Shown: positions 39,507 to 53,195 of the stretch, piece by piece | How the letters are laid out: each line of letters starts with the position of its first letter | Numbering within the stretch: the stretch's first letter is position 1 | Source of the DNA: Stappia indica | Lineage (GTDB): Bacteria; Pseudomonadota; Alphaproteobacteria; Rhizobiales; Stappiaceae | DNA length: 54,809 bases | Assembly: GCF_020177335.1 (NCBI RefSeq) | Contig: NZ_JAIVMG010000019.1 | Coordinates: 1-54,809, forward strand | Reading direction: 5' to 3' | Notes under the pieces: generated by a model | Told to the model about the DNA's origin: nothing | Database searches by the model: none | What the model saw: the letters and a program-made list of their open reading frames with translations, nothing else | Program-made: the position numbers and the translations under genes

Positions 39507-39983
39507 ATGACTGGCGACGCAGAAAATCACGATTACAAAACTGAGCTAACGACAGAAGCTGCTCCCACCACTCAGATTTTACGCCTTCGTCTACAGCAAT
39601 TTGCTCGTGCACTTCGCAAAATAAAGGCAGAACTCGAAACGACAGGACGGCCAGCTGGAATCGATTTGTCCGACAATGCATCCTCCTTACTCGCTGCCAC
39701 AGCGATAAGTGTCGCCTTTCCCGTCGAGGACTTGCAGTCAATGACCTATCGGCGTGCTTTGGCAGCTGCAAAGGCTGGAAAGCTTGGCGATTGGCGTGAA
39801 ATTGCTGTCGAAGAAATCGCTTGCCTCATCGATATCGTTGAAAAGGCGAAAACAAGCCTCCACACGCTCGATGTGTTCGACAAGCCACCTCTACCCCAGT
39901 GGTCGAATCTCCCGGCCCAACATCTTGCGCGGGCAATCAATTCATACGCTCACCTGGTCTTTCAAGCCCCTGTGGTGAGGTAA
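39507..39983 (+). CDS. Hypothetical protein of the mobilizable element
   Basis: The ATG at 39507 has GGAGG 6 nt upstream. The 158-residue product is helical and mixed-charge: TTQILRLRLQQFARALRKIKAELETTGRPAGIDLSDNASSLLAATAISVAFP, then MTYRRALAAAKAGKLGDWREIAVEEIACLIDIVEKAK. No known domain is visible. It ends 3 bp before the primase-like gene and so is translated from the same message. It may be a partner of the primase or a replication factor of the element. Confidence 0.65.
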   Translation: MTGDAENHDYKTELTTEAAPTTQILRLRLQQFARALRKIKAELETTGRPAGIDLSDNASSLLAATAISVAFPVEDLQSMTYRRALAAAKAGKLGDWREIAVEEIACLIDIVEKAKTSLHTLDVFDKPPLPQWSNLPAQHLARAINSYAHLVFQAPVVR

Positions 39984-39986
39984 GCG

Positions 39987-40955
39987 ATGGTGCATCCAGC
40001 AACACGCCGCGCCTCCCTGCAAGCGCTATCGGCTCTTGATACAACGGTCGACATCGGCTTTGTCTTTCCTCCTCGGGAGGCCGAGGATCGGGGACGAGGC
40101 ATCTGGACAGGTCGCGACCTGGTGCCCGCAGATGTCGCGGAACTGCTTCCCCGGGCGGCAGCCGCCAATGCCCGAGGTGCCGCCATATTTATGCGTCTCG
40201 GGCCATCGGCCCGGGACGGGCATCCCGGCATCGTTATGCTCGATGATCTGAATGCTGACGCTGCAACGCGCATTGCGCTTGACGGCTTTCAGCCCGCTTT
40301 GACTGTGGAGACGTCACCGGGAAATTTCCAAGTTTGGATCAAGCTCATCGCCGCTGGCGAACTGCTGTACCCAGTTGTTCGTGGTGCAGTCAAACACCTG
40401 TCGGAACTTTTTGGCGCTGACCTTAGAGCCGTCAGTCCAATGCAACCGGGCCGATTGCCAGGCTTCACCAATCGCAAGCCAAAGCACCGCCAGGCAGACG
40501 GACATTTCCCGTTTGTCCGTCTGGTGGATGCCAGTGGCTGTATCGCGTCCGCCGGACCAAACTTGGTTGACGAGATAAAGGCGAACCTCCCGGCACAGCG
40601 CGGCCGCGCCCAAGGCGCTGCCTCTGAAACGCCGCCGGTGGCGGCGGTGTCTGGCCGTCCTGCTGCCACGGAGGATTTCGATGCGATCGACAGGATCCGC
40701 CAAGCGCAGGAGGCCCGCATTTGGGCCGAAGCCCGACGCGGAAGTCGGCCAATGGATGCCTTTTCTGCATCGGAAATCGACTTCGCCGCTGTGGTGGTTG
40801 CACTCGGCGAGGACGTTTCCAGACCGATGCTGGAGGCCTGGCTCAGGATGCGCCGGCCGGAAAAGGCAGCCGGATATGCGGCCCTCACGGTCCAGAATGC
40901 CGACCGATACTTGGAGGACCAAACCAGCACGCCGCAACCGTCGGGCCGCCCATGA
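39987..40955 (+). CDS. RepB-like DNA primase of the mobilizable element
   Basis: The 322-residue protein matches the RepB_primase pattern. VMLDDLNADAATRIALDGFQPALTVETSPGNFQVWIKL holds the DD metal site and the SPGN-QVW motif. RAVSPMQPGRLPGFTNRKPKHR is the conserved downstream piece. The C-terminal 110 residues are charged and include a small helical domain (FDAIDRIRQAQEARIWAEARRGSRPMDAFSASEIDFAAVVVAL). Such primases start DNA synthesis on plasmids and mobilizable elements after transfer. Its stop overlaps the next start (ATGA), so the pair is translationally coupled. Confidence 0.8.
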   Translation: MVHPATRRASLQALSALDTTVDIGFVFPPREAEDRGRGIWTGRDLVPADVAELLPRAAAANARGAAIFMRLGPSARDGHPGIVMLDDLNADAATRIALDGFQPALTVETSPGNFQVWIKLIAAGELLYPVVRGAVKHLSELFGADLRAVSPMQPGRLPGFTNRKPKHRQADGHFPFVRLVDASGCIASAGPNLVDEIKANLPAQRGRAQGAASETPPVAAVSGRPAATEDFDAIDRIRQAQEARIWAEARRGSRPMDAFSASEIDFAAVVVALGEDVSRPMLEAWLRMRRPEKAAGYAALTVQNADRYLEDQTSTPQPSGRP

Positions 40956-41344
40956 AGAGATATTTGACACGGCGGGAGGTCGCGGAAATCTATCCGATCT
41001 CGGAAAGCTCCCTTGCGCAACTCGCGATGAGGCGCGAGGGGCCACGGTATTTCATGCCTCAGAAGCGCGCCCTTTACCTTGCCGAGGACGTGGAGGAGTG
41101 GATTGAGGCACATGCTGTCATTGCGCGGTCGCGCCCGATGCTGAGATCACGCAAGTTCATCGAGGAGAAACCTGTCACGCTGCAACAAGCTCCCGGGCCA
41201 AAGGCGGAAACCACTCGACGGGAGCCCATCCAGGAAGAGCCTAAAAAGGTGGGGGCGCAAAAAGGCAAGAAGCGCGGGAGGCGGCGCAAGAGCTTGGTGC
41301 CGTCAGCCAATTCCTGGCTCCGAAACAATCCCGATCATCAATGA
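40952..41344 (+). CDS. HTH protein, excisionase-like
   Basis: The 130-residue protein starts within the primase stop. Its first 50 residues are a MerR/excisionase-type HTH: MKRYLTRREVAEIYPISESSLAQLAMRREGPRYFMPQKRALYLAEDVEEWIEAH. The rest is a basic, disordered tail (KKVGAQKGKKRGRRRKSLVPS) likely to contact DNA. The gene lies between the primase and the integrase and points toward the latter. This is the common position of a recombination directionality factor, so excision control is inferred. A plain transcription regulator is possible. Confidence 0.75.
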   Translation: MKRYLTRREVAEIYPISESSLAQLAMRREGPRYFMPQKRALYLAEDVEEWIEAHAVIARSRPMLRSRKFIEEKPVTLQQAPGPKAETTRREPIQEEPKKVGAQKGKKRGRRRKSLVPSANSWLRNNPDHQ

Positions 41345-41369
41345 GGGGTTGCTGCCGGAGCCAGGATGC

Positions 41370-42449
41370 TCATACCGCAATGCGCAGGCTACCGGCTGCT
41401 TGACGCTCGCTCTCCATTTTGCGTAGGCGCGCCACTGCATCGCTCACCCGCGGGTGTCGATAGCGCAGCAGCGACTTGATATCGACGTGGCCGGAAAAGT
41501 CCATCACCTGCTCAGCGGTCCAGCCATGATCAAAACAACGCGAAATCGCCTCATGCCTGAAATCGTGCCAACGCCAATGGGCGACACCAGCACGTAGACG
41601 TGCCCGCTCGAACGCGTTCTTCAATGCCTCAGCGGAAATCGGGAAGATATGTCCTTCCCTTTTCTCGCGGCCGGGAAGCTCTTCGACGACGACCTGCGCG
41701 GCGTAGGTAAGCAGAATATCCCTTCCGCGCCCGTTCTTGGCGTCGTGCAGATAAATCGTTCCGCCGTTGTGGCTGTAATCACTCCAGCGAAGGCGCAGCA
41801 GTTCGGACCGCCTGCACCCGGTCTCCAGTGCGAACCGGGCGGCCGGTAGAAGAAGTTTGTTTCGTGCACAGGCGAACTCGTGGAAGAGCCGGTCCTCCTC
41901 ATCCGGTTCGAGCCGGATAATGCGCTCGTCCCGTACCTGGGGGCGACTGACCTGGTCCAACGGAGAGCCAAGCATCTTAAGATCAATCGCTGCCTGTCTC
42001 ATGACCGGCATCAGCAAATTCATTTCCCGGCGGACGGTGCTGGATTTCACCTCTTCCAGCCGCAGTGCCTTCCACTCAACCCAATCTTGGCGGGTAATAT
42101 TCGCCATGCTCATCTGACAGAATGGGGGATAGCGTTTGATGAAAGTGGAGAGACGTGCGGCTTCGCCGTCTTTGCCCTTTTTGTCGCTTTGCTGGACTTC
42201 CCTAATGGCATTCTCCAGCACTTCACCGAGGGTGATCCGCTCCGGAGCCCGGTGGTCGCGACGGCTGCCATGGTTGCGGTCATTGAGGACCTGGACGACG
42301 GCGGCATCGGCATCCGCCAGCCGGTCGAACGTTTTCGCGTAGTCGGGGAAGCCTTTTTGACGAATTTTCACCTGATAGCCCGTGAGACGGCCGTCAGAGG
42401 AAATTCGTTCATAGACGTGACGGTGATTCTTGAGACGTTTGGTCGGCAC
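41370..42449 (-). CDS. int: Tyrosine-type site-specific integrase
   Basis: The 359-residue protein has an N-terminal arm-binding region (about 1-60, RISSDGRLTGYQVKIRQKGFPDYAKTFD) and a SAM-like core-binding domain (about 75-170). The catalytic domain holds Arg in LETGCRRSELLRLRW, HxxR in HDFRHEAISRC, the later His in DFSGHVDIKSLLRYRH, and the nucleophile Tyr330 in the same segment. All catalytic residues are present. It starts 103 bp from the tRNA-Arg 3' end that forms the attachment site and reads away from it. It would insert and excise the mobilizable element at that tRNA. Confidence 0.92.
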   Translation of the reverse strand: MPTKRLKNHRHVYERISSDGRLTGYQVKIRQKGFPDYAKTFDRLADADAAVVQVLNDRNHGSRRDHRAPERITLGEVLENAIREVQQSDKKGKDGEAARLSTFIKRYPPFCQMSMANITRQDWVEWKALRLEEVKSSTVRREMNLLMPVMRQAAIDLKMLGSPLDQVSRPQVRDERIIRLEPDEEDRLFHEFACARNKLLLPAARFALETGCRRSELLRLRWSDYSHNGGTIYLHDAKNGRGRDILLTYAAQVVVEELPGREKREGHIFPISAEALKNAFERARLRAGVAHWRWHDFRHEAISRCFDHGWTAEQVMDFSGHVDIKSLLRYRHPRVSDAVARLRKMESERQAAGSLRIAV

Positions 42450-42551
42450 GGGACTTTGGTTCCTTGAAATAGGATTTGTCCCAAATTTGTCCCAAACCTA
42501 TGAAAGGAACAAATTTTCACCGTAGAAATTTCGCTAAGCCATTGAAAACAT

Positions 42552-42597
42552 TGGCGCACCCGAGAGGATTCGAACCTCTGACCTCTGCCTTCGGAGG
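42552..42597 (-). tRNA. tRNA-Arg(CCG) 3' half, attachment site of the element
   Basis: Read on the minus strand, the 46 nt give the 3' half of a tRNA: anticodon-loop letters CTCCGAA with the 3' anticodon arm GGCAG, the variable loop, the T-arm AGAGGTTCGAATCCTCT, and an acceptor strand ending in CCA. The CCG anticodon points to arginine. The 5' half is absent; IS66 sequence starts directly beyond 42597. The integrase gene lies just to the left. This is the integration site of the element, or its duplicated 3' end. It is not a working tRNA gene. A matching second copy was not seen elsewhere in the window. Confidence 0.7.
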
Positions 42598-44577: not shown

Positions 44578-44894
44578 CAGGCAATGCCGAGCCACGGTCG
44601 GTGTCTATTTTCCTTGCGGGGAGAAAGAGGCAAAGCCTCTTGGCTTCCCCGATCAATGAGCAATGCGCTGCTACGCAGCTCTCAAATTTATATGTCAGAG
44701 ATGGAAGCCGAATGGCCGAGACCACAGGCTCGGTTCACGACATCCCGTCCCCAGGTGTGCGCCCAGCGGATCAAAAAGCGGCAATATCGTTTTTCACGAT
44801 ATTTTTCTATGAGAACCATTATTCATGTGGCAGAATCATATTTCAGGAAGAATCCTTTCTGGAACCACGCAACCCCGAGCAAGGCACGGATTTC
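44578..44894. promoter_or_regulatory. Fic promoter region with a palindromic operator candidate
   Basis: No separate gene was recognised in these 317 bp, although the Fic frame stays open back to 44601. A perfect inverted repeat AATATCGT TTTTC ACGATATT (44783-44803) lies 91 bp before the chosen Fic start, in an AT-rich patch that looks like a promoter. Two related inverted words with TTCAGGAA and TTCCTGAA occur just after (44845-44965), the second inside the gene. Such operators are common upstream of self-regulated toxin genes. Confidence 0.45.
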
Positions 44895-46445
44895 ATGGCT
44901 TCGGCCGCACAGCACCAGTTTTCAGGCCCAATATCCGTTTTTCAGGAAAGACGCCTTCCTGAAACCGCGACGCCTGCCGGCTACAGCGCGCTGATCGATG
45001 CCTATAGGCTCGAAGTCCCCCTGCCACGCACGCTCTGCGCCATCGGCGCTCATCACCGCATGCTGGAGCGTGATGGCTGGCGGATGATGACACCGCGCCA
45101 TGCGCCAGCGGCCAGCCTCGAAGGCCACCTGACCTTCGCCCTCAAGTATGAAGGGCTCGACCTTGCCGTTCTCAAGTGCCTGTTCCTCAAGGTTGGCCCT
45201 GACCCGATCACAGCTATTGTGCGCGACAAACCGACCGGCACTTACGCAAGGCGCGTCTGGTTCCTCTATGAATGGCTCACCGGGGAAGCGCTGGACCTGC
45301 CCGATGCCCGGACCGGGAAATATGCCCCCGTGCTCGATCCCGATCTGCAATGGGGCATCGAAGGTGAAACCGTTCCACGCTATCGGCTACGGAATAACCT
45401 GCCCGGCACTCCGGCGTTTTGTCCGCTGGTCTTTCGCACAAAGCGGCTTGAAGACTTCATCGCCGAGGGCCTGGCGCAACGCGCCAGAGACATCGTGGCC
45501 GATGTCCCGCGCGATGTGCTCGCTCGTACCGCCGCCTTCCTGCTGCTCAAGGATTCCAAATCCAGCTATGCGATTGAAGGCGAAAGCCCGCCGCAGGACC
45601 GTATCCAGCGCTGGGGTCGCGCCATTGGCGAAGCAGGCAAACAGCCGCTTGATGAGGACGAGCTGCTGCGCCTGCAACGCATCGTCATTGGCGACGCCCG
45701 CTTCATCAAGCTGGGCTTTCGCGACGAAGGTGGATTTGTCGGCGACCATGACCGCGATACCCGCCTGCCGCTGCCGGACCATATCAGTGCACGTCACGAA
45801 GACCTGCTGTCGCTTCTGACGGGCATGATCGCCTTCGACCGTGGTCCCGCGCAGCACATGGACGCCGTCATCGCCGCCGCGATCCTCGCTTTCGGCTTTG
45901 TCTATATCCACCCGTTCGAGGACGGCAACGGCCGTCTGCACCGCTATCTCATTCATCATGTCCTGGCTGATCGCGGCTACAATCCGCCCGGCGTTGTCTT
46001 CCCGGTCTCGGCAGCGATTCTCGACCAGATCGATCAGTACCGCACCACGCTCGAATCCTATTCGCAGCGCCTGCTGCCCCATATCCGCTGGGAGCCAACC
46101 GAGAAATTCAATGTCCGCGTCCTGAACGAAACCGGCGATTTCTACCGCTTTTTCGATGCCACCCCGCACGCCGAATTTCTCTATGAGTGCGTCAAGCGCA
46201 CCATCGAACACGATCTGCCCTACGAGACGCAGTACCTGCGCCGCTACGATGAATTCCGCCGCCGTATCGAAGACATGATTGATATGCCTGAGCGCGCCGT
46301 CGACCTGCTATTCCGGTTTCTCAGCCAAAATGGCGGCAAGCTGTCGAACCGCGCCAAAGAGAAGGAGTTCGCCGCCCTGACGCCTGCAGAAGCAGAGCGG
46401 ATCGAGGCGATCTACGGCGATATCTTTTTAACCGAGACCATTTGA
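44895..46445 (+). CDS. Fic-domain protein (AMPylator type) with inhibitory motif
   Basis: The ATG at 44895 begins 516 residues; the upstream in-frame extension looks like promoter DNA. The Fic core has the motif HPFEDGNGRLHR (catalytic His339), flanked by AAILAFGFVYI and YLIHHVLADRGY. About 110 residues earlier is Ser224-Tyr-Ala-Ile-Glu228-Gly, the (S/T)xxxE(G/N) inhibitory helix of class II Fic enzymes, so it should be self-inhibited. The N-terminal 200 residues look like a DUF4172-less HipB/Fic partner region (SALIDAYRLEVPLPRTLCAIG). Such enzymes add AMP to target proteins. It precedes a truncated OLD-type ATPase by 7 bp, suggesting a two-gene defence or toxin module. Confidence 0.85.
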   Translation: MASAAQHQFSGPISVFQERRLPETATPAGYSALIDAYRLEVPLPRTLCAIGAHHRMLERDGWRMMTPRHAPAASLEGHLTFALKYEGLDLAVLKCLFLKVGPDPITAIVRDKPTGTYARRVWFLYEWLTGEALDLPDARTGKYAPVLDPDLQWGIEGETVPRYRLRNNLPGTPAFCPLVFRTKRLEDFIAEGLAQRARDIVADVPRDVLARTAAFLLLKDSKSSYAIEGESPPQDRIQRWGRAIGEAGKQPLDEDELLRLQRIVIGDARFIKLGFRDEGGFVGDHDRDTRLPLPDHISARHEDLLSLLTGMIAFDRGPAQHMDAVIAAAILAFGFVYIHPFEDGNGRLHRYLIHHVLADRGYNPPGVVFPVSAAILDQIDQYRTTLESYSQRLLPHIRWEPTEKFNVRVLNETGDFYRFFDATPHAEFLYECVKRTIEHDLPYETQYLRRYDEFRRRIEDMIDMPERAVDLLFRFLSQNGGKLSNRAKEKEFAALTPAEAERIEAIYGDIFLTETI

Positions 46446-46452
46446 GGACGTT

Positions 46453-46605
46453 ATGCATTTATCGCGCATCAGGATAGAGAATTTCAGGAACTTCAAGCTG
46501 CTCGATGTCGAGCTCGCCGGCAATATCGTCGTCGGCGGCGAAAATAGGGTCGGCAAGACCAACCTGCTCTACGCCCTGCGCCTGATATTCGATCCGACTG
46601 TCAAC
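46453..46605 (+). pseudogene. OLD/RecF-type AAA ATPase, N-terminal fragment
   Basis: The fragment reads MHLSRIRIENFRNFKLLDVELAGNIVVGGENRVGKTNLLYALRLIFDPTV. This is the start of an ABC-type ATPase of the OLD/RecF kind, with Walker A GGENRVGKTN at about residues 28-37. The similarity ends near 46605. The frame then goes on to 46665 in unrelated DNA, so over 90% of the usual 550-650 residues are missing. It starts 7 bp after fic and was surely its operon partner. The truncation probably inactivates the module. Confidence 0.8.
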
Positions 46606-46653
46606 GGCGGAGCAAAACCCGGCCACGCGCCGGAGCAAAAGTCGGCCACTGTG

Positions 46654-46710
46654 GCGCACGCATGAGAGCCCCGGGAGGGCGTAGCCCGAGCGGGGTTCTC
46701 ATGCGTGCGC
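46654..46710. repeat. Long near-perfect hairpin
   Basis: GCGCACGCATGAGA (46654-46667) pairs with TCTCATGCGTGCGC (46697-46710) over 14 bp without mismatch. The pairing goes on inward through one G-T pair and CCCCG/CGGGG, around a smaller GGGC-GTA-GCCC hairpin. GGCGCTTTTTT follows on the plus strand, so it could end transcription. It marks the break between the truncated ATPase and IS21/IS5 debris. It may be an IS end, a REP-like unit or a terminator. Confidence 0.55.
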
Positions 46711-46993: not shown

Positions 46994-48238
46994 CTAGTCA
47001 ACGACTTCAACTTTTTGATCGCTCACATAGCTCAGAGTCGCTAGAAACATCACAACTGCTGCGACCTCGTCTTCATCCAGAACAACGCCACTTATCGGCT
47101 CGTGCGACCAAGCCTTCAAACGATCGTAGAAGTCGACGCGCTCCAGGCCTGTCATACCTTTAGGATCGATGAATATTAGCGGATCGTAGTGGGTACGGAT
47201 TGCATCCGAAAGTGCATCGACGGAACCGGAGTGCATGTACGGCGCCGTTTTCGTTACGTTGTATAATGGCGGCGTCCGGAACATGTATTTGTCGTTCACA
47301 TCGAGGGTAACGTTGAAACGACCGTAATCGACCCCGAAGCCATTTTTGCCGAAGCCCACCTGAGGGCTCGCTATGGCGTGAAAGCCCAGGTCGGAAAAGT
47401 ACGGCCCGTTGTGGCAGGCAACACAGTTGCCCTTGCCATAGAATATCAAACCACCCTTGATTTCCTCGGGACTTAGGGGGGCACCGCGAAAAACGAAATC
47501 GTGGAACCGCGTTGGCTTCACCCTGAAGTTCGTTCGGATAAAGGCAGCGATCGCCTCTGCTGCGTCTGAAAATTCGAGTTCGGCCAAGGAAACACTCTGG
47601 GCCTTCGCCAATGCATCACCGAGTTCCGGATTCTCACGGACGCGCTCGATCAGGGTCTCGTAGACTGAATTCGCTGTTTCAACGGTTTCCGTCTGAAGTT
47701 CCAGAGTACTCTTGTTGTCGATCAACATCTCGCCGATTTCAACGGGCGGCAAATGTGCGGCGACGATCAGCGGATCATTCGAGGGCGCCTCGTCGCCGAA
47801 CTGGCTGTGAACGGCGCTCCCGTTTCGCTCCACCTTCCCGTCCCAGAAAAGAACGTCAAACCCTTTGCCTCCGCGGCCCCACAGGGGCAAGACATTCCGT
47901 GGAATGATATCACCACCCCTGAACACGCGCTCGGCACCTATCCCCTCCCCCTCGGTACCGATAGCGATAGGAAGACCGTCGGCGGACCCGAATTTATCGA
48001 GGTGACAAGAGGCGCAAGCGGTATCCTCGCTCAGCGAAAGGAGTCTGCTCTCGAAGAGCTTCTTGCCGACTTCGACGAGAGGTTCCGGCGACGCGACATG
48101 CGTTTCCGACGCCGGAACAAGTCCGTTTTCGATCGCGGCCTCTCGGAGGACACGGCTTCGTAGGTCGTCCGCTTCCGCCGAGCAAATCGCCCCACCCAAA
48201 AACCAAAGGCCGAGAAGGATTCTAGTAGCGGATTTCAT
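46994..48238 (-). CDS. MauG-like di-heme enzyme of the His-Xaa-Ser system
   Basis: The 414-residue protein has a signal peptide (LLGLWFLGGAICSAEA). Two c-type heme motifs are visible: CASCH (Cys75, Cys78, His79) and CVACH (Cys272, Cys275, His276). This is the di-heme cytochrome c peroxidase/MauG layout, with FRTPPLYNVTKTAPYMHSGSVDALSDAI near the C-terminal heme. MauG uses bis-ferryl heme to oxidise residues of a partner protein in the periplasm. Its first 17 bp overlap the end of the small gene before it, and it is the last gene of the hxs operon. Therefore the likely substrate is the modified HxsA, not hydrogen peroxide alone. That role is inferred. Confidence 0.85.
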   Translation of the reverse strand: MKSATRILLGLWFLGGAICSAEADDLRSRVLREAAIENGLVPASETHVASPEPLVEVGKKLFESRLLSLSEDTACASCHLDKFGSADGLPIAIGTEGEGIGAERVFRGGDIIPRNVLPLWGRGGKGFDVLFWDGKVERNGSAVHSQFGDEAPSNDPLIVAAHLPPVEIGEMLIDNKSTLELQTETVETANSVYETLIERVRENPELGDALAKAQSVSLAELEFSDAAEAIAAFIRTNFRVKPTRFHDFVFRGAPLSPEEIKGGLIFYGKGNCVACHNGPYFSDLGFHAIASPQVGFGKNGFGVDYGRFNVTLDVNDKYMFRTPPLYNVTKTAPYMHSGSVDALSDAIRTHYDPLIFIDPKGMTGLERVDFYDRLKAWSHEPISGVVLDEDEVAAVVMFLATLSYVSDQKVEVVD

Positions 48239-48611
48239 GAATGCGAACGACCTCTCTTAGATCTGCTCCTTTTTCCTCAATCGCAACCAGGGCCATTTCA
48301 CTCAGTTCGTTTTCCGTCAGTCCCCACCGGATGAGAGACTTTCGCATCAAGTCGTAGTCCTGGCAGTCGATGAGACCGATCTCGGCGGACTTCACGTCCA
48401 TCACATTGGCCTTGGAGGGCGTCATGACCAGCCGCTGTTTGGCCAGCAGATGATTGCGCATGGCATTGTCACACTTGAAGGTAAGTTCGGAAAACTCGGC
48501 CTGGTTCATTTTCTCGACGCCCAACTTCCAGATCGGTTGGGCGATGAACGAAACAGCCAACCCTAGGATACATCCTGCGAGAAAACTAATCGGCGACGAT
48601 ACCAAACGCAT
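48222..48611 (-). CDS. Small accessory protein of the His-Xaa-Ser system
   Basis: The 129-residue protein starts inside the hxsA 3' end (26-bp overlap) and overlaps the MauG-like start by 17 bp. An N-terminal membrane anchor or signal (FLAGCILGLAVSFIAQPIW) is followed by a helical, probably periplasmic domain with one Cys pair candidate (LTFKCDNAMRNHLLAKQRLVM and IGLIDCQDYDLMRKSLIRWGLTENELSEMALVAIEE). Position and look match a small family found only in Hxs loci; its biochemical role is unknown. Two conserved Cys could form a disulfide. Confidence 0.7.
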   Translation of the reverse strand: MRLVSSPISFLAGCILGLAVSFIAQPIWKLGVEKMNQAEFSELTFKCDNAMRNHLLAKQRLVMTPSKANVMDVKSAEIGLIDCQDYDLMRKSLIRWGLTENELSEMALVAIEEKGADLREVVRIHEIRY

Positions 48612-49131
48612 TGAGCACCTCCAGCGTAATCGTACCTGTTACCCGCAATCCGTAGTCACTCTGGAACTTGGAAAGAGCTGCCTTTGACTCCGAACCAATG
48701 ATGCCGTCGATCGCGCCATTGTAATATCCGTACGCCATCAATCCTGACTGCACCCTTCTTGCGATCGCTTTGAATTTCTCCGAATTTCCGGGAAGTGTTT
48801 TAGGTGCGGCGGCTGGAGGACTAGGCAAGACGGATGTTGGCGGCGTGCTGGTGGTGTTCCGGTTCGTAGCCGGCGGATTATAAATTGTTGAACCTGAGCT
48901 GCGCGGCGCAGAATACCCCCCGCCGGAAGAAGACCGATGACTTGAATGCGATCTATGGCTTGAGTGAGAACGGTGGGCCGCCAGCGTATAAGTGTGTTGG
49001 CTCTTGAGGTTGTCGAATACAGAATTTTTCTTGGCAATATCGGACACAGGATCAGACGGCGTATTCGCCGCGGTGTCGCCTCCCCAAAATCCCGCCGCCA
49101 AAAGCGATGGAATCACGAACTTCTTTTTCAT
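48586..49131 (-). CDS. hxsA: HxsA, His-Xaa-Ser repeat protein with peptidoglycan-binding domain
   Basis: ATG 49131 overlaps the hxsC stop (ATGA), so the 20 upstream in-frame residues are not used. The 181-residue product has a signal peptide-like start (MKKKFVIPSLLAAGFWGG). Five contiguous HxS units occur at residues 53-67 (HRS HSS HRS HSS HRS), then a Ser/Pro/Thr linker and a PG_binding_1 domain (about 120-178: IARRVQSGLMAYGYYNGAIDGIIGSESKAALSKFQSDYGLRVTGTITLEVLNAFG). The repeat is written with different His, Arg and Ser codons each time, which points to selection on the protein. It is the presumed substrate of the two radical SAM enzymes and is anchored to the cell wall. Confidence 0.88.
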   Translation of the reverse strand: MKKKFVIPSLLAAGFWGGDTAANTPSDPVSDIAKKNSVFDNLKSQHTYTLAAHRSHSSHRSHSSHRSSSGGGYSAPRSSGSTIYNPPATNRNTTSTPPTSVLPSPPAAAPKTLPGNSEKFKAIARRVQSGLMAYGYYNGAIDGIIGSESKAALSKFQSDYGLRVTGTITLEVLNAFGIVAD

Positions 49132-50210
49132 AGTGCCCCCACACTCGAAAATCCCCGCTCTTCCGGATACCACTCGAAAAAGCCGGTACACCTATTAATA
49201 GCAGAACAATCACTGCAAGTCGGTAAATACTTCTGTTTCCAATCAGAAATAGAATTTGCGCAGAACCGTCGGTATGGCTCAGGGACGGTGCAGAGCGGGA
49301 AATTGTACAAGACCGTTTCAAGGCCTCGAATGTTGGCGATATCCACTCCGGCCGCGATTGGGTCAAAATTTTGGGAACTGTCGAAGAACTCTCGGCCCCA
49401 GTTTTGTCGGCCGTACCCGATCGGCTCCAACTGCATGATCGCCCAGAACGAGATATGAGGATGGTGGGTCGTCACGTACAAAGACAGGTCTGCCAATCCG
49501 TTCACATTGGCGTTGAGGATCACCGTCCTCAATTCAATCCGATGTCCATTCTTTCCCAGGAGTGCAAGGTTCCGCTCGAGCGTTTCAAAGGCGCCGGCTT
49601 TCACCACGATGTCGTCATGCGTTTCAGGTGACGCAGAATAACAAGGAATTCCCCAGAGGATGCGAGCGCGATCCAAGCGCTGGAGGATCGGTTCGTCGTT
49701 TTTGTCGAAATGCTGTCCGTTGGTGAGGATATGAAACTCGATATCCGGCCTGCGCTCCTGCACCCGGAGCAGGAAGTCAAATAGCCTCTCTTTGTGAAGC
49801 ATCGGTTCGCCGCCGGAGATGCCAATCGTCGTGCCGTATGGTCCCAACAAAGCGGCTTCGTAAAAGGGATCAAACAAATCCACGTGGTGCGCCTTGGGAG
49901 GCTGGGAGCACATGACGCATTTCTGATCGCATTGCTCGGTCACCAGAAACGTATTGTGAGGCGAGCCGTTCCTGATCAACCGATGGAGCGACCTCTGGCC
50001 CGGCAATATCAGAACGACGTCACCGTCCAGGGCGTCCGGGTCCGGAGTTCTAACCGTCAGGGACAGTCCACAAACGTCGTATTCGACAAAGCCCTGACCG
50101 CGGTGTATGACGCCGGCAGTTCCCTCCTCGGAAGGGCCGTCATTCTGGAGCCGGATCACAAGCGGTACCGAGATGGGAAAGGGGTCGATCGCGACCCTCA
50201 AAGGGATCAT
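49128..50210 (-). CDS. hxsC: HxsC, radical SAM enzyme of the His-Xaa-Ser system
   Basis: ATG 50210 overlaps the hxsB stop by 4 bp (ATGA) and gives 360 residues. The 4Fe-4S motif CX3CX2C is at Cys94, Cys98 and Cys101 (TEQCDQKCVMCSQPPK). It is followed by the SAM-binding GISGGEP (radical SAM beta2 motif) and EFHILTNGQHF. The C-terminus holds a Cys cluster (FPLCTVPEPYRRFCANSISDW...YLPTCSDCSAINRC) that may bind an auxiliary Fe-S cluster. It is expected to modify HxsA, whose gene follows immediately. The reaction is not known to me. Confidence 0.88.
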   Translation of the reverse strand: MIPLRVAIDPFPISVPLVIRLQNDGPSEEGTAGVIHRGQGFVEYDVCGLSLTVRTPDPDALDGDVVLILPGQRSLHRLIRNGSPHNTFLVTEQCDQKCVMCSQPPKAHHVDLFDPFYEAALLGPYGTTIGISGGEPMLHKERLFDFLLRVQERRPDIEFHILTNGQHFDKNDEPILQRLDRARILWGIPCYSASPETHDDIVVKAGAFETLERNLALLGKNGHRIELRTVILNANVNGLADLSLYVTTHHPHISFWAIMQLEPIGYGRQNWGREFFDSSQNFDPIAAGVDIANIRGLETVLYNFPLCTVPEPYRRFCANSISDWKQKYLPTCSDCSAINRCTGFFEWYPEERGFSSVGAL

Positions 50211-51616
50211 TTCAGCCTTGCCGCCAGTTCGGTCCGATACTTCGGTGTCCCGAGCCAATGACCAAGCGATCGTTGCACTTTGGGGTCTTCCGAGTAGATC
50301 AACTCGAATGCGAAATCGAAAAGCGCCGTGTGATGTTGGCAGTGAGCCGTTTCGTGTCGAGGGATATCGATGCGACCATATCTTGAAAGGTCATCGATGA
50401 CGTCGGGACCGCAGTAGGCCTGGTAGACGCAGTGGATGCAATCCGGATCCTCAAAATTTGAAGCCGCCGAATTGAGAACGTCGCGCTTCCGCGCATCTAT
50501 CCCGCTGTCGACATCTCCGATGGAGAGATCCAAACGACCGATCCGTGAGACCATGCGCGCTTCGTCGGTGGGATAGTACTGCCCGTCGAAGTCGACGACG
50601 AGATAGTCATATCCCAGCCAATTTGGGTTCCTGAGATCGACATGATTTTGGACGCCCGTCCTGAAAATCCGCCGGAGCAAATGGCTCAGATAATACTCTT
50701 CGACCGCATCGTCATTTTCCCAATTATGCTCGACCAATCGGTCGACGAACCGCCTATAGAATTCCATCCAGGCCTCTTGCGTATCCCTGAAGTCATACCG
50801 CTTTCGCGCAAATCCCTGGTAATTGACACGGCGGAGATAAATTGAACGGAGACCAAGCTCAACGAAGCTCCGTATTACGGTGTCAGGGTCCGGCAGATTG
50901 TGAACGTCGAGCGTCGGAAGGGCTGAAACCTTTGCCGTTCCGAATTCGGAAAACGCCCTCTGGAGATTGCTCCGGAACTCGCTGTGCACGACGGATTCCT
51001 TCGTTCGCTGTGACCGATGAACCTCCTCCACACCATCGAACGATGTGCTGATGAACGTGTCTGCTGCGCCTAGAAATTCCCAAGCCTCCTCGGAAACGGA
51101 CTGAAGATTGGTGCACACGACGAACTCGGCTTGTCGGAAATTATTGCGGCAAAACTCCCGGACCTCTTCCAGTATATCCAAGCGGAGCAAGGGCTCTCCT
51201 CCTTGGAATTCGATCTTTATGGTCTCGGTGTCCAGCTTTGAAAGGGATCCCAAAAACTGTCGCAGGATCTCGTCATTCCAATCGAATCCGGATGCCGTCT
51301 CCGGCGCGCGAGATACCTGGCAGTAGTCGCAGGTCAGATTGCATCTCAGCGTGGGGATCAGAATGAAGTAATTGAGTTTCGAAACTGGATTTATCCGCCT
51401 TGCCCAGCGACCGCAAAAGCCATCGAAGGCGGCGTCGCTCGTGTCACGGTAGGCGTGACCATGACGCCTCAGAAACTCGAAGTCATCGTCCGTCAGGATG
51501 CCGTCGACGTACCTCTCGAGAAACCTCTGGTCGCTTCTGAAGAAGCCACCAGCTTCGTTCGTGAACAAGAGCTCCCCATGATCATGCTCGCGGAATTTGA
51601 GTGGCCAGACCTTCAT
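50207..51616 (-). CDS. hxsB: HxsB, radical SAM/SPASM-like enzyme of the His-Xaa-Ser system
   Basis: The 469-residue protein carries CX3CX2C at Cys92, Cys96 and Cys99 (LRCNLTCDYCQ), the beta2 motif EFQGGEPLL, and FVVCTNLQ and STSFDG as in peptide-modifying radical SAM enzymes. A C-terminal SPASM-like Cys set, CIHCVYQAYCGPDVIDDLSRYGRIDIPRHETAHC, would hold an auxiliary cluster. The start overlaps the hxsD stop (ATGA). The N-terminal 80 residues may bind the substrate (FREHDHGELLFTNEAGGFF). It belongs to the anaerobic-sulfatase-maturase/SPASM branch, acting in the cytoplasm before export of HxsA. Confidence 0.9.
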   Translation of the reverse strand: MKVWPLKFREHDHGELLFTNEAGGFFRSDQRFLERYVDGILTDDDFEFLRRHGHAYRDTSDAAFDGFCGRWARRINPVSKLNYFILIPTLRCNLTCDYCQVSRAPETASGFDWNDEILRQFLGSLSKLDTETIKIEFQGGEPLLRLDILEEVREFCRNNFRQAEFVVCTNLQSVSEEAWEFLGAADTFISTSFDGVEEVHRSQRTKESVVHSEFRSNLQRAFSEFGTAKVSALPTLDVHNLPDPDTVIRSFVELGLRSIYLRRVNYQGFARKRYDFRDTQEAWMEFYRRFVDRLVEHNWENDDAVEEYYLSHLLRRIFRTGVQNHVDLRNPNWLGYDYLVVDFDGQYYPTDEARMVSRIGRLDLSIGDVDSGIDARKRDVLNSAASNFEDPDCIHCVYQAYCGPDVIDDLSRYGRIDIPRHETAHCQHHTALFDFAFELIYSEDPKVQRSLGHWLGTPKYRTELAARLK

Positions 51617-51927
51617 TGTCCGAAAACCGCGACATTGAGAGCGTGTCTGCTGTCCTTGCCTTCTTCCCGTATCTTCTCGCGATAGATCGAATAAAAAAGC
51701 TGCTGCCTGAAATCATCGAAATCGAGGTTTTCCGGAAGCCCAATTTCCAGATATCCATCTCGGGCATCGATCCGCGCAGTCGGAAAGAGGTACCCGATCC
51801 GGGCGACGGCTGAATTCAGAAAGGCTGTCAGCTCGACTGGGATATCCAGCCGAAACTTCGAGAGCGTATTGTGATTTTCACTCGGCTCATTCACCTGAAT
51901 TGGCTTTCGACTGTCATCGGGATGCAC
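51613..51927 (-). CDS. hxsD: HxsD, small protein of the His-Xaa-Ser system
   Basis: The GTG start at 51927 has AGAGG 7 nt upstream. The 104-residue protein (ENHNTLSKFRLDIPVELTAFLNSAVARIGYLFPTARID..GYLEIGLPENLDFDDFRQQLFYSIYREKIREEG) is cytoplasmic and alpha/beta. Its stop overlaps the hxsB start. In Hxs loci this small gene always accompanies the two radical SAM genes. A role as a recognition or chaperone-like partner, similar to RRE proteins in other RiPP systems, is an inference. It is the first gene of the operon. Confidence 0.82.
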   Translation of the reverse strand: MHPDDSRKPIQVNEPSENHNTLSKFRLDIPVELTAFLNSAVARIGYLFPTARIDARDGYLEIGLPENLDFDDFRQQLFYSIYREKIREEGKDSRHALNVAVFGQ

Positions 51928-52043: not shown

Positions 52044-52991
52044 TCAGCGTTGCGCCCGACGCCAGCCCGCTGCTCGAGCCTCCGTTTCGGAGCAAAACCA
52101 TCGTTCACCCCCACCCGTATTGATCTGAGTCTTCTCGTAAAATTCCTGTCCTGGAACATGATAGATCCGTGCGCCGGTCGAAACGCTTATGTTGCCTTTG
52201 ATGTTGCAGTTTCCTCCACCATTCCCTATCCGGACGGTTCGGTCCTCCTCGCGCTGCTCCTGTTGTTCGGATTGCTTCCGGGCGCGGTACTCCCAAGGCT
52301 TCTCAAACGCCCCCTGCCAAACGCCACTTTTTTTCGCCGACGCATTCGCCTGGTATTCGGCATAGGCACCATTGCTGTAACGAGGCCAGTCCAAAGCATG
52401 TCCGGCAATTACAAGCGCAACCGCAACACTCTCGCCGTCTGCGCGATAACAGTCCCCCACGTAGCGACCGTATTGATCCCATTCGACGAAGTTGCAGGTT
52501 GTTGGTCTGGATGCCGCGAGGTAGCTGTCAAGGAAGTTCGCCGACTGACGTCCGCAACGATACCTTTCACCACCTTCACGGAAACAGTGCTGATCAGTTT
52601 CCGGCGCGTCGATGCCGTTGAACCGAATTCGCTGACCGCGAATTTCGATGGTGTCTCCATCTATTATCGAAGCCCTTCCGACAATGGTTTCTCCGGGTCC
52701 TTCGGATCCGCGGCTCCACAATCCGGCGAGTTTTGGGACTCCTTCGTACCAGACTGAAAGCCCCGTACTGGCGATCAGGAAAACACTGAAACCAAGCGCG
52801 ATGTCGGTCAGTCTTATTTTCGACGGCTTGGACGCGCGCGACGTCACATTCAGGCTTACGATATTTCCTCCGACGATACCTTTGCATGCCGGGTAACGCG
52901 AACACCCCCAAAATTCGCGTCCCTTATTTCGTCCGCGTTTCGCAACCCTTCGTCTCATCTCGGCCCCACACTTAGGGCAACGAATTCCCAT
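52044..52991 (-). CDS. Thermonuclease-family protein with N-terminal zinc finger
   Basis: The ATG at 52991 has GGGA 8 nt upstream; a TTG at 53015 is the alternative. A topoisomerase-type C4 zinc finger opens the protein (CPKCGAEMRRR...GREFWGCSRYPACKG). A membrane span (about 62-82, LGFSVFLIASTGLSVWYEG) separates it from a staphylococcal-nuclease domain (about 100-225: GRASIIDGDTIEIRGQRIRFNGIDAPETDQHC, EWDQYGRYVGDCY). A C-terminal tail VSTGARIYHVPGQEFYEKTQI...GERWFCSETEARAAGWR is common on rhizobial thermonucleases. It lies 116 bp upstream of hxsD on the same strand, so it may be co-transcribed with the hxs operon. Confidence 0.85.
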   Translation of the reverse strand: MGIRCPKCGAEMRRRVAKRGRNKGREFWGCSRYPACKGIVGGNIVSLNVTSRASKPSKIRLTDIALGFSVFLIASTGLSVWYEGVPKLAGLWSRGSEGPGETIVGRASIIDGDTIEIRGQRIRFNGIDAPETDQHCFREGGERYRCGRQSANFLDSYLAASRPTTCNFVEWDQYGRYVGDCYRADGESVAVALVIAGHALDWPRYSNGAYAEYQANASAKKSGVWQGAFEKPWEYRARKQSEQQEQREEDRTVRIGNGGGNCNIKGNISVSTGARIYHVPGQEFYEKTQINTGGGERWFCSETEARAAGWRRAQR

Positions 52992-53195
52992 CACAGCATC
53001 CCGATTTTTCGCCAAGACTAATCCGGAACGTTTTCGCCCTCCCCATAAGCAGCATCAGTCGCCAACTCAATCGCCCTTTCAAGCCGTGCTCGACAAAATT
53101 TGGCCGCGGCCATTGTAATATACAACCAGTACCATCTGGAATATGGGTTGGCATGTGCTGCGGTGCGTACATTTGATTTGTTTGGAGATATCACG

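Follow-up and report, generated by a model that had tools for sequence, protein, structure and literature searches.

What does a diheme c-type protein do in an operon built around a repeat protein and two radical S-adenosylmethionine (SAM) maturases? The question is raised by a 54,809-nucleotide stretch of Stappia indica DNA (assembly GCF_020177335.1, positions 1–54,809 of contig NZ_JAIVMG010000019.1; hereafter the window), in which six overlapping open reading frames of the His-Xaa-Ser (Hxs) system occupy positions 46,994–51,927, all on the minus strand. The observation holds up: the operon belongs to the catalogued Hxs system and appears intact; all of its families are already in NCBIfam, and it is rare but of a known kind. 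We propose, with a probability of about 0.5, that it is an HxsABCD operon with an accessory diheme module whose products would dock on wall-held HxsA. To the catalogue we add a candidate docking motif that goes with this module, a gene fusion tying the module's two proteins together, and a test of the heme ligands that bears against a quinone-forming role.

The first four genes are those of the core system. HxsD (51,613–51,927; 104 residues, with a GTG start as listed) is followed by the radical SAM maturases HxsB (50,207–51,616; 469 residues; 407.7 bits to TIGR03978, cut-off 370) and HxsC (49,128–50,210, with its ATG at 50,210; 360 residues; 294.7 bits to TIGR03977, cut-off 267.9), which have CxxxCxxC motifs at residues 92–99 and 94–101 respectively. 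HxsA (48,586–49,131; 181 residues; 157.5 bits to TIGR03979, cut-off 121.65) has a signal-like N-terminus, an array of five contiguous His-Xaa-Ser (HxS) units (HRS HSS HRS HSS HRS; residues 53–67, 48,931–48,975), a linker, and a peptidoglycan-binding domain (PF01471, PG_binding_1, E 1.1e-12; residues 125–175, 48,607–48,759). Among 200,000 shuffles of HxsA a run of at least three HxS units arose once and a run of five not at all, so the array is not due to chance. To its 3' side are a 129-residue TIGR03982 protein (48,222–48,611; 90.1 bits, cut-off 40) and a 414-residue 'MauG-like' diheme protein (46,994–48,238; 389.4 bits to TIGR03981, cut-off 340; CCP_MauG, PF03150, E 4.4e-18) with CxxCH motifs at residues 75–79 (48,002–48,016) and 272–276 (47,411–47,425). 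The hxsD–hxsB, hxsB–hxsC and hxsC–hxsA junctions are 4 bp ATGA overlaps, hxsA overlaps the TIGR03982 gene by 26 bp, and that gene overlaps the diheme gene by 17 bp. An earlier note, made by a model from the letters alone, had described this layout with an overlap at every junction, the radical SAM cysteines (92/96/99 in HxsB and 94/98/101 in HxsC), the five HxS units, both heme motifs, the peptidoglycan-binding domain and the Hxs identity of the operon, and each of these descriptions is correct. The profile search it suggested for all six families succeeds for five, which pass their NCBIfam curated cut-offs in a single cluster, and fails for HxsD, which matches no model. That some of these proteins are secreted is predicted from the look of their N-termini.

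The two genes at the end of the operon travel together. An alignment of five diheme proteins scanned over named genomes gave 80 loci, of which the 47 close ones (L073–L119, with L075 kept in place of L027) were used and 33 weak ones left out. With L067, L068, L072 and the window these make 51 diheme-bearing loci, compared throughout with 33 loci that lack the diheme gene (84 in total), where lacking means absent from the fetched stretch and not from the genome. TIGR03982 is present in 49 of the 51 and in 0 of the 33; in the two misses, L080 and L112, the stretch ends at the diheme gene. HxsB is found in 46 of the 51, the other five being at contig ends, and the test set by the earlier note, that the MauG-like and small genes should co-occur with hxsBC in other genomes, thus turned out in its favour. 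A second diheme gene adjoins the first in nine loci, and in eight of them (L095, L099, L100, L103, L107, L115, L118 and L119, including two near-copies) it is fused to an N-terminal TIGR03982-like domain (E between 1e-9 and 2e-6 when all open reading frames are searched); the second copy in L106 lacks the domain. The L095 fusion is also detected by the NCBIfam model (TIGR03982, E 1.3e-4), and both cysteines of the fused domain are kept in the eight printed sequences. Because of this natural gene fusion we infer that the TIGR03982 and diheme proteins work as one complex. Among 44 aligned TIGR03982 proteins 13 columns are invariant, including Cys47, Asp48, Met51, Glu77, Cys83, Tyr86, Asp87, His125 and Glu126, and an AlphaFold2 model (predicted local distance difference test, pLDDT, 86.8) has shorter helices and a long N-terminal helix that is probably a membrane anchor. 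We also observe that the first diheme gene lies in two separated pieces in L118 (3,275–6,027) and L119 (7,435–10,004), and that the fused second copy is one open frame.

Side-by-side reading of the HxsA proteins reveals a motif, R-N-x-x-S-T-P-P-x-S-(I/V)-L-P, between the repeats and the wall-binding domain (residues 90–106 in the window, 48,814–48,864), which occurs only in the diheme-bearing loci of the compared set. The strict pattern is matched in 46 of the 48 diheme-bearing loci with an HxsA-type gene in hand, against 0 of the 33 without the module, and the two misses, L090 and L109, carry near variants. It is also absent from ten further HxsA-type genes on viral-type contigs without the diheme gene (0/10), and from a second, repeat-less HxsA-type gene in the diheme-free loci L171 and L174. 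Shuffled HxsA tails match in about 0.25% of cases. Across 48 sequences found with a slightly relaxed pattern, the last Pro and the Leu/Met before it are present in all 48, the Ser in 47, the Thr in 45, and the two Pro residues in 45 and 39; the Arg four residues and the Asn three residues upstream are kept in 31 and 30. When a matrix was trained on 31 motifs, 15 of the 17 positives set aside, for the most part more distant loci, outscored all 43 negatives.

On a quick tree of 79 HxsB proteins, used for independent pairs (INDEPENDENCE), the diheme label changes eight times, at least six of these on starred branches. Over 200 random draws of six pairs, the motif went with the diheme gene in 5.7 pairs on average and never against it, with no difference in 0.3 (median p 0.031, range 0.031–0.125), and TIGR03982 went with it in 6.0 of 6 (p 0.031). 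A different kind of evidence comes from systems in which HxsA is split. In L101, L111, L113 and L114 a short peptide gene ahead of hxsB carries the HxS repeats, and a repeat-less protein encoded between hxsC and TIGR03982 carries the motif; in L092 an HxsA–HxsC–HxsB set lies in the opposite orientation, and a separate motif protein starts the TIGR03982–diheme unit. NCBIfam recognizes nothing in the L111 motif protein, only peptidoglycan-domain or marginal matches in those of L101, L113 and L114, and HxsA matches below cut-off in those of L092 and L098. Since the motif here sits on a separate protein beside the module, it belongs to the module and not to the repeats. We regard the split systems as the strongest argument that the motif may serve the diheme enzyme or its partner, and the new evidence suggests a link between the diheme enzyme and the HxsA linker, rather than the repeats.

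The heme ligands bear on the chemistry. Among solved structures, the profile of the diheme protein best matches peroxidases and the di-heme enzyme 6e1c, which we take to be MbnH, and alignment places His350 (47,189–47,191), the predicted sixth ligand of the second heme, where 6e1c has a Tyr and peroxidase 2c1u has a Met. Every copy compared has His there: 49 of 49 first copies, not counting the broken ones of L118 and L119, and 9 of 9 second copies. Both CxxCH motifs are likewise invariant (58/58), as are Trp132 and Glu170 (49/49 and 9/9), whose positions are presumably those of the inter-heme Trp and the acid-base Glu. The protein falls far below the cut-offs of the MauG model TIGR03791 (58.9 bits, cut-off 443.85) and the MbnH-type model TIGR04039 (102.6 bits, cut-off 362.85). 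It is the only TIGR03981 match in the window's genome, which also encodes a protein passing the TIGR00353 (nrfE) cut-off, presumably of the CcmF family of cytochrome c maturation. We considered whether His350 is special to the Hxs diheme proteins, and rejected this since His is also present in 17 of 17 printable sequences of 22 sub-cut-off loci (L045–L066). According to PMC7567364, Tyr294 is conserved in all MauGs, its lack has been used to call a protein a cytochrome c peroxidase (CCP), and CCPs have Met or His at this position. Passages of PMC6405878 describe a Tyr-to-His change in BthA that removes the near-infrared bis-Fe(IV) feature, report the same for MauG, and state that Y463H BthA still reduces peroxide with an external donor; a passage of PMC6311187 gives the second heme of RoxA as bis-His. 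On the side of the putative substrate, the window's HxsA has its only Trp at residue 16, and among 47 repeat-bearing HxsA proteins from diheme loci, four of them short peptides, 33 lack Trp from roughly the first HxS unit onward. Because His replaces the axial Tyr and Trp is not conserved, MauG-like and kynurenine-forming chemistry on HxsA is unlikely, and quinone or kynurenine formation was rejected as the leading reading. The further oxidation of HxsA by the MauG-like protein that the earlier note put forward is not supported in that form; a post-translationally built redox or metal site on the peptidoglycan, which it also envisaged, may nevertheless be formed.

That HxsB and HxsC modify the HxS repeats is a reading built into the family names, and we adopt it here as a presumption. 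Of 447 H-x-x units in arrays of four or more, 446 end in Ser, and the middle residue is mostly Arg, Ser, Ala or Gly. We know of no product for the Hxs system, and none was found in the openly licensed literature searched. HxsB of the window belongs to a clade scoring 360–479 bits, the other clade scoring 539–620; it has further conserved cysteines at 393/396/402/426 (invariant columns in an alignment of six) and matches the YhhB model at 51.5 bits (E 6.8e-14), below the cut-off of 445. The radical SAM enzymes HaaB, ScaB and YhhB are described in a passage of PMC11002830 as joining the His at position i to the Cbeta at i+2. Because the HxS spacing equals this distance, our first guess by analogy, and the product we think likeliest at somewhat less than even odds, is a His(i)–Ser(i+2) three-residue cyclophane.

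HxsD of the window has no match in NCBIfam, TIGR03976 included, at E up to 10. We name it HxsD because its profile relatives sit directly upstream of hxsB in other loci and 5 of the 20 aligned members match TIGR03976 (best 1.4e-16), the window member not being among them. Its AlphaFold2 model is a compact alpha/beta fold (pLDDT 89.6) with the order strand-helix-strand-strand-helix-helix and has no Foldseek match at E 0.001 or better; the PqqD-like winged-helix fold of the recognition elements of ribosomally synthesized and post-translationally modified peptides has three strands and then three helices. Neither the HxsD nor the TIGR03982 model has a convincing relative among known structures.

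Together these observations suggest a scheme in which HxsB and HxsC, helped by HxsD, would modify the His-Xaa-Ser units of cytoplasmic HxsA, by cross-linking or in some other way, and HxsA would then be exported and held on peptidoglycan by its C-terminal domain. TIGR03982 and the diheme protein, which are seen to co-occur and to be fused, would form one periplasmic, membrane-tethered complex, and this complex probably docks on HxsA through the linker motif, whose presence tracks the module. The diheme protein would be a peroxidase-type enzyme with a His/His second heme, and not a MauG-type quinone builder. It may use peroxide to oxidise the docked, already modified HxsA, which is plausible at rather under even odds; the alternative that it takes electrons from HxsA is possible but doubtful. 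More speculatively, and with no great expectation that all of it will hold, the motif might be a short linear docking site that brings the TIGR03982–diheme complex to the peptidoglycan, the Hxs product might be a repeat-built, wall-fixed cofactor that is the substrate or electron donor of a bis-His diheme peroxidase, and the modified HxS peptide and docking protein of the split systems might be separate, exchangeable subunits of that complex.

The most probable rival makes HxsA an electron relay, which after modification would bind a metal or cycle its redox state and feed electrons to the diheme enzyme; the enzyme would then simply be a peptidoglycan-anchored hydrogen peroxide reductase. The ligand pattern of CCPs and the retained peroxide reduction of Y463H BthA suit this reading, and the motif and fusion evidence fits docking for that purpose equally well; it is weakened by the 15 of 17 Hxs loci in our first samples that lack the diheme gene, in which HxsA must have a role of its own, and we know of no report of metal binding by HxsA. 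We hold it to be a tentative possibility. Rather less probable is a MauG/MbnH-type maturase that turns HxsA side chains into a quinone, a kynurenine or something similar through bis-Fe(IV) chemistry, a reading which extends the earlier note and is the sense of the NCBI model name SAM_quin_mod. The TIGR03981 family and its CCP_MauG domain, the strict co-occurrence of the diheme gene with HxsA and the retained Trp and Glu positions, with their presumed roles, all speak for it, and there are precedents in MauG and CorB/CorA (a passage of PMC3912023); the His that replaces the axial Tyr in 58 of 58 copies, the loss of the bis-Fe(IV) feature on the same replacement in BthA and reportedly in MauG, and the scarcity of Trp in HxsA make it distinctly improbable.

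Two further explanations question whether the motif or the operon has the significance we give it. The motif could serve another process, for instance proteolysis, glycosylation or export, and have arrived with the module by association only; the linker is rich in Ser, Thr and Pro, and the motif core is nearly without aromatic or sulfur residues. We think this unlikely, as independent gains or losses of the motif track the diheme gene, the split systems keep the motif with the module and not with the repeats, and the second HxsA-type genes of the diheme-free L171 and L174 lack it. The operon as a whole could instead be a relic, strain-specific cargo with no present function. HxsB is above cut-off in 0 of 13 congeners, the hxs genes have no DNA match in these 13 among the 21 of 59–102 candidate stretches scored in each genome, and the neighbours include a transposase-type gene and a cut-short ATPase; against this, the six frames are open and overlapping, and the residues examined for the clusters, the hemes and their ligands are all retained, so that we consider a relic very improbable.

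Several points count against the docking proposal and in part against the comparison behind it. The motif pattern was written after the positives had been viewed, and only negatives were fetched after that, among them fifteen (L160–L174) of the 33 loci without the module; the negatives total 43, and only 30 of these have a tail of at least 16 residues, the rest leaving nothing to test. Fresh positives were sought in two further orders, and the searches returned three loci, apparently L117, L082 and L090, which had already been compared. The positives include near-copies (L099 and L100 have identical HxsB), and at least one negative outscored the set-aside positives L109 and L110. The HxsB tree was built quickly, leaves 22 of its 75 inner branches open and carries a warning about long branches coming together, and for these reasons we draw no order of events from it. 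Aromatic and sulfur residues are absent from the motif core except for a Tyr/Phe at one position in 11 of 48 sequences and a Met in 7 of 48; because it holds no residue that a heme enzyme would obviously oxidise, it could be a protease, export or folding signal. The bis-His assignment comes from alignment and not from a structure of the window's protein, and His at position 350 marks a group wider than the Hxs diheme proteins. The scheme is a computational proposal at every step.

How widely the diheme module is distributed bears on what is standard for the system. Among 61 relatives HxsB passes its cut-off in three, one of them the window's genome; it does so in 14 of 398 genomes sampled across the phylum and in 12 of 397 from the order, and these counts too include the window's genome. 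The diheme gene is present in 2 of the 17 loci from the relatives and phylum samples. TIGR03981 is above cut-off in 2 of 385 genomes of the class, in 0 of 274 of another class, and in 1 of 230 and 2 of 231 genomes of two further orders; counts from these last searches may be slightly low, as not every first-look candidate was scored. The diheme gene is thus a minority accessory and no standard part of Hxs. On plasmids, tblastn with HxsB finds relatives in 435 of 72,556 records, 318 of them named Klebsiella, and in 397 of the records one place covers at least 80% of the query.

Hxs genes also occur on eleven contigs classed as viral in IMG/VR (L191–L201), all with hxsB and hxsC and ten also with an hxsA-type gene, and a Leptospira phage record carries an annotated hxsB; no close relative of the diheme protein was found on viral contigs (one weak match). 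On a Mesorhizobium plasmid (L168, 1–2,751) and an Aminobacter plasmid (L170, 1–4,317), hxsBCA has at most a few kb away genes of the type found in cyclic oligonucleotide-based antiphage signalling systems (CBASS), which encode a DncV-like cyclase, ThiF and Mov34. On three rhizobial plasmids without the diheme gene, a gene of 369–394 residues with no Pfam match, possibly another accessory, is found downstream of hxsA (L069, 6,480–7,640; L173, 8,113–9,297; L174, 8,205–9,314).

An anti-phage role of the window's operon was considered and rejected, as in PADLOC HxsB and HxsC have only viperin-type radical SAM matches of 31–37 bits and the other four proteins have no match. Beside it is a Fic-domain gene (44,601–46,445) that matches the PADLOC candidate defence model PDC-S24 (E 5.5e-204), and adjoining the operon is the N-terminal part of an AAA_15-type ATPase, 70 residues long and apparently cut short (46,453–46,665). 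A thermonuclease-type gene lies upstream of hxs both here (52,044–53,015) and on a Thioclava plasmid (L068, 5,118–5,594). By an integrase gene (41,370–42,449) there are about 47 bases (42,551–42,597) that recur whole or nearly so in 13 of 13 congeners and resemble an attachment site; an ARAGORN search of the window yields no tRNA. We do not assign hxs to the integrase element, because the integrase block (39,983–42,597), which recurs in the window's genome, is also present in G013, whose matches to the HxsB model are weak.

A single repeat protein, bound to the wall, appears to be the meeting point of two radical SAM enzymes and a diheme enzyme. With the motif, the split systems and the fusion, what was a set of families that co-occur becomes a complex open to test, and together they indicate which protein the diheme enzyme should touch, and where. 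The family name is no ground to assume MauG-type quinone chemistry, and we know of no activity for the Hxs diheme protein. In the openly licensed literature searched we did not find the linker motif, the TIGR03982–diheme fusion or their co-occurrence; PMC9062424 mentions HxsB and HxsC, PMC8446631 lists hxsABCD among the genes of a Pseudomonas strain, and the string hxsd occurs once in PMC10686908.

Set beside known systems, the operon is closest to the His-Xaa-Ser system of TIGR03976–TIGR03979 (HxsD, HxsB, HxsC and HxsA), whose original description is reportedly by Haft and Basu. It shares the four core genes in the same order, the HxS repeats and a peptidoglycan-binding HxsA, and differs in having an HxsB of the lower-scoring clade and an HxsD below the model. 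The His-Xaa-Ser-associated TIGR03981 and TIGR03982 proteins are both above cut-off and adjacent, and to these are added here the linker motif, the split form and the fusion of both domains. Three-residue cyclophane (triceptide) enzymes act on a ring-bearing residue i and an acceptor at i+2, which in HxS would be His and Ser, whereas Hxs has HxS arrays, two paired enzymes and a wall protein instead of a small peptide. With MauG, which acts in tryptophan tryptophylquinone biosynthesis, the diheme protein has in common two CxxCH motifs and the CCP_MauG domain; it differs in its His for the sixth-ligand Tyr and in a partner HxsA that, in the window, has no Trp beyond residue 16. It resembles the bacterial diheme cytochrome c peroxidases, which together with 6e1c give its best solved-structure profile matches, and is like RoxA in its predicted second-heme His ligand, and it is set apart from both by its gene context and its strict partners.

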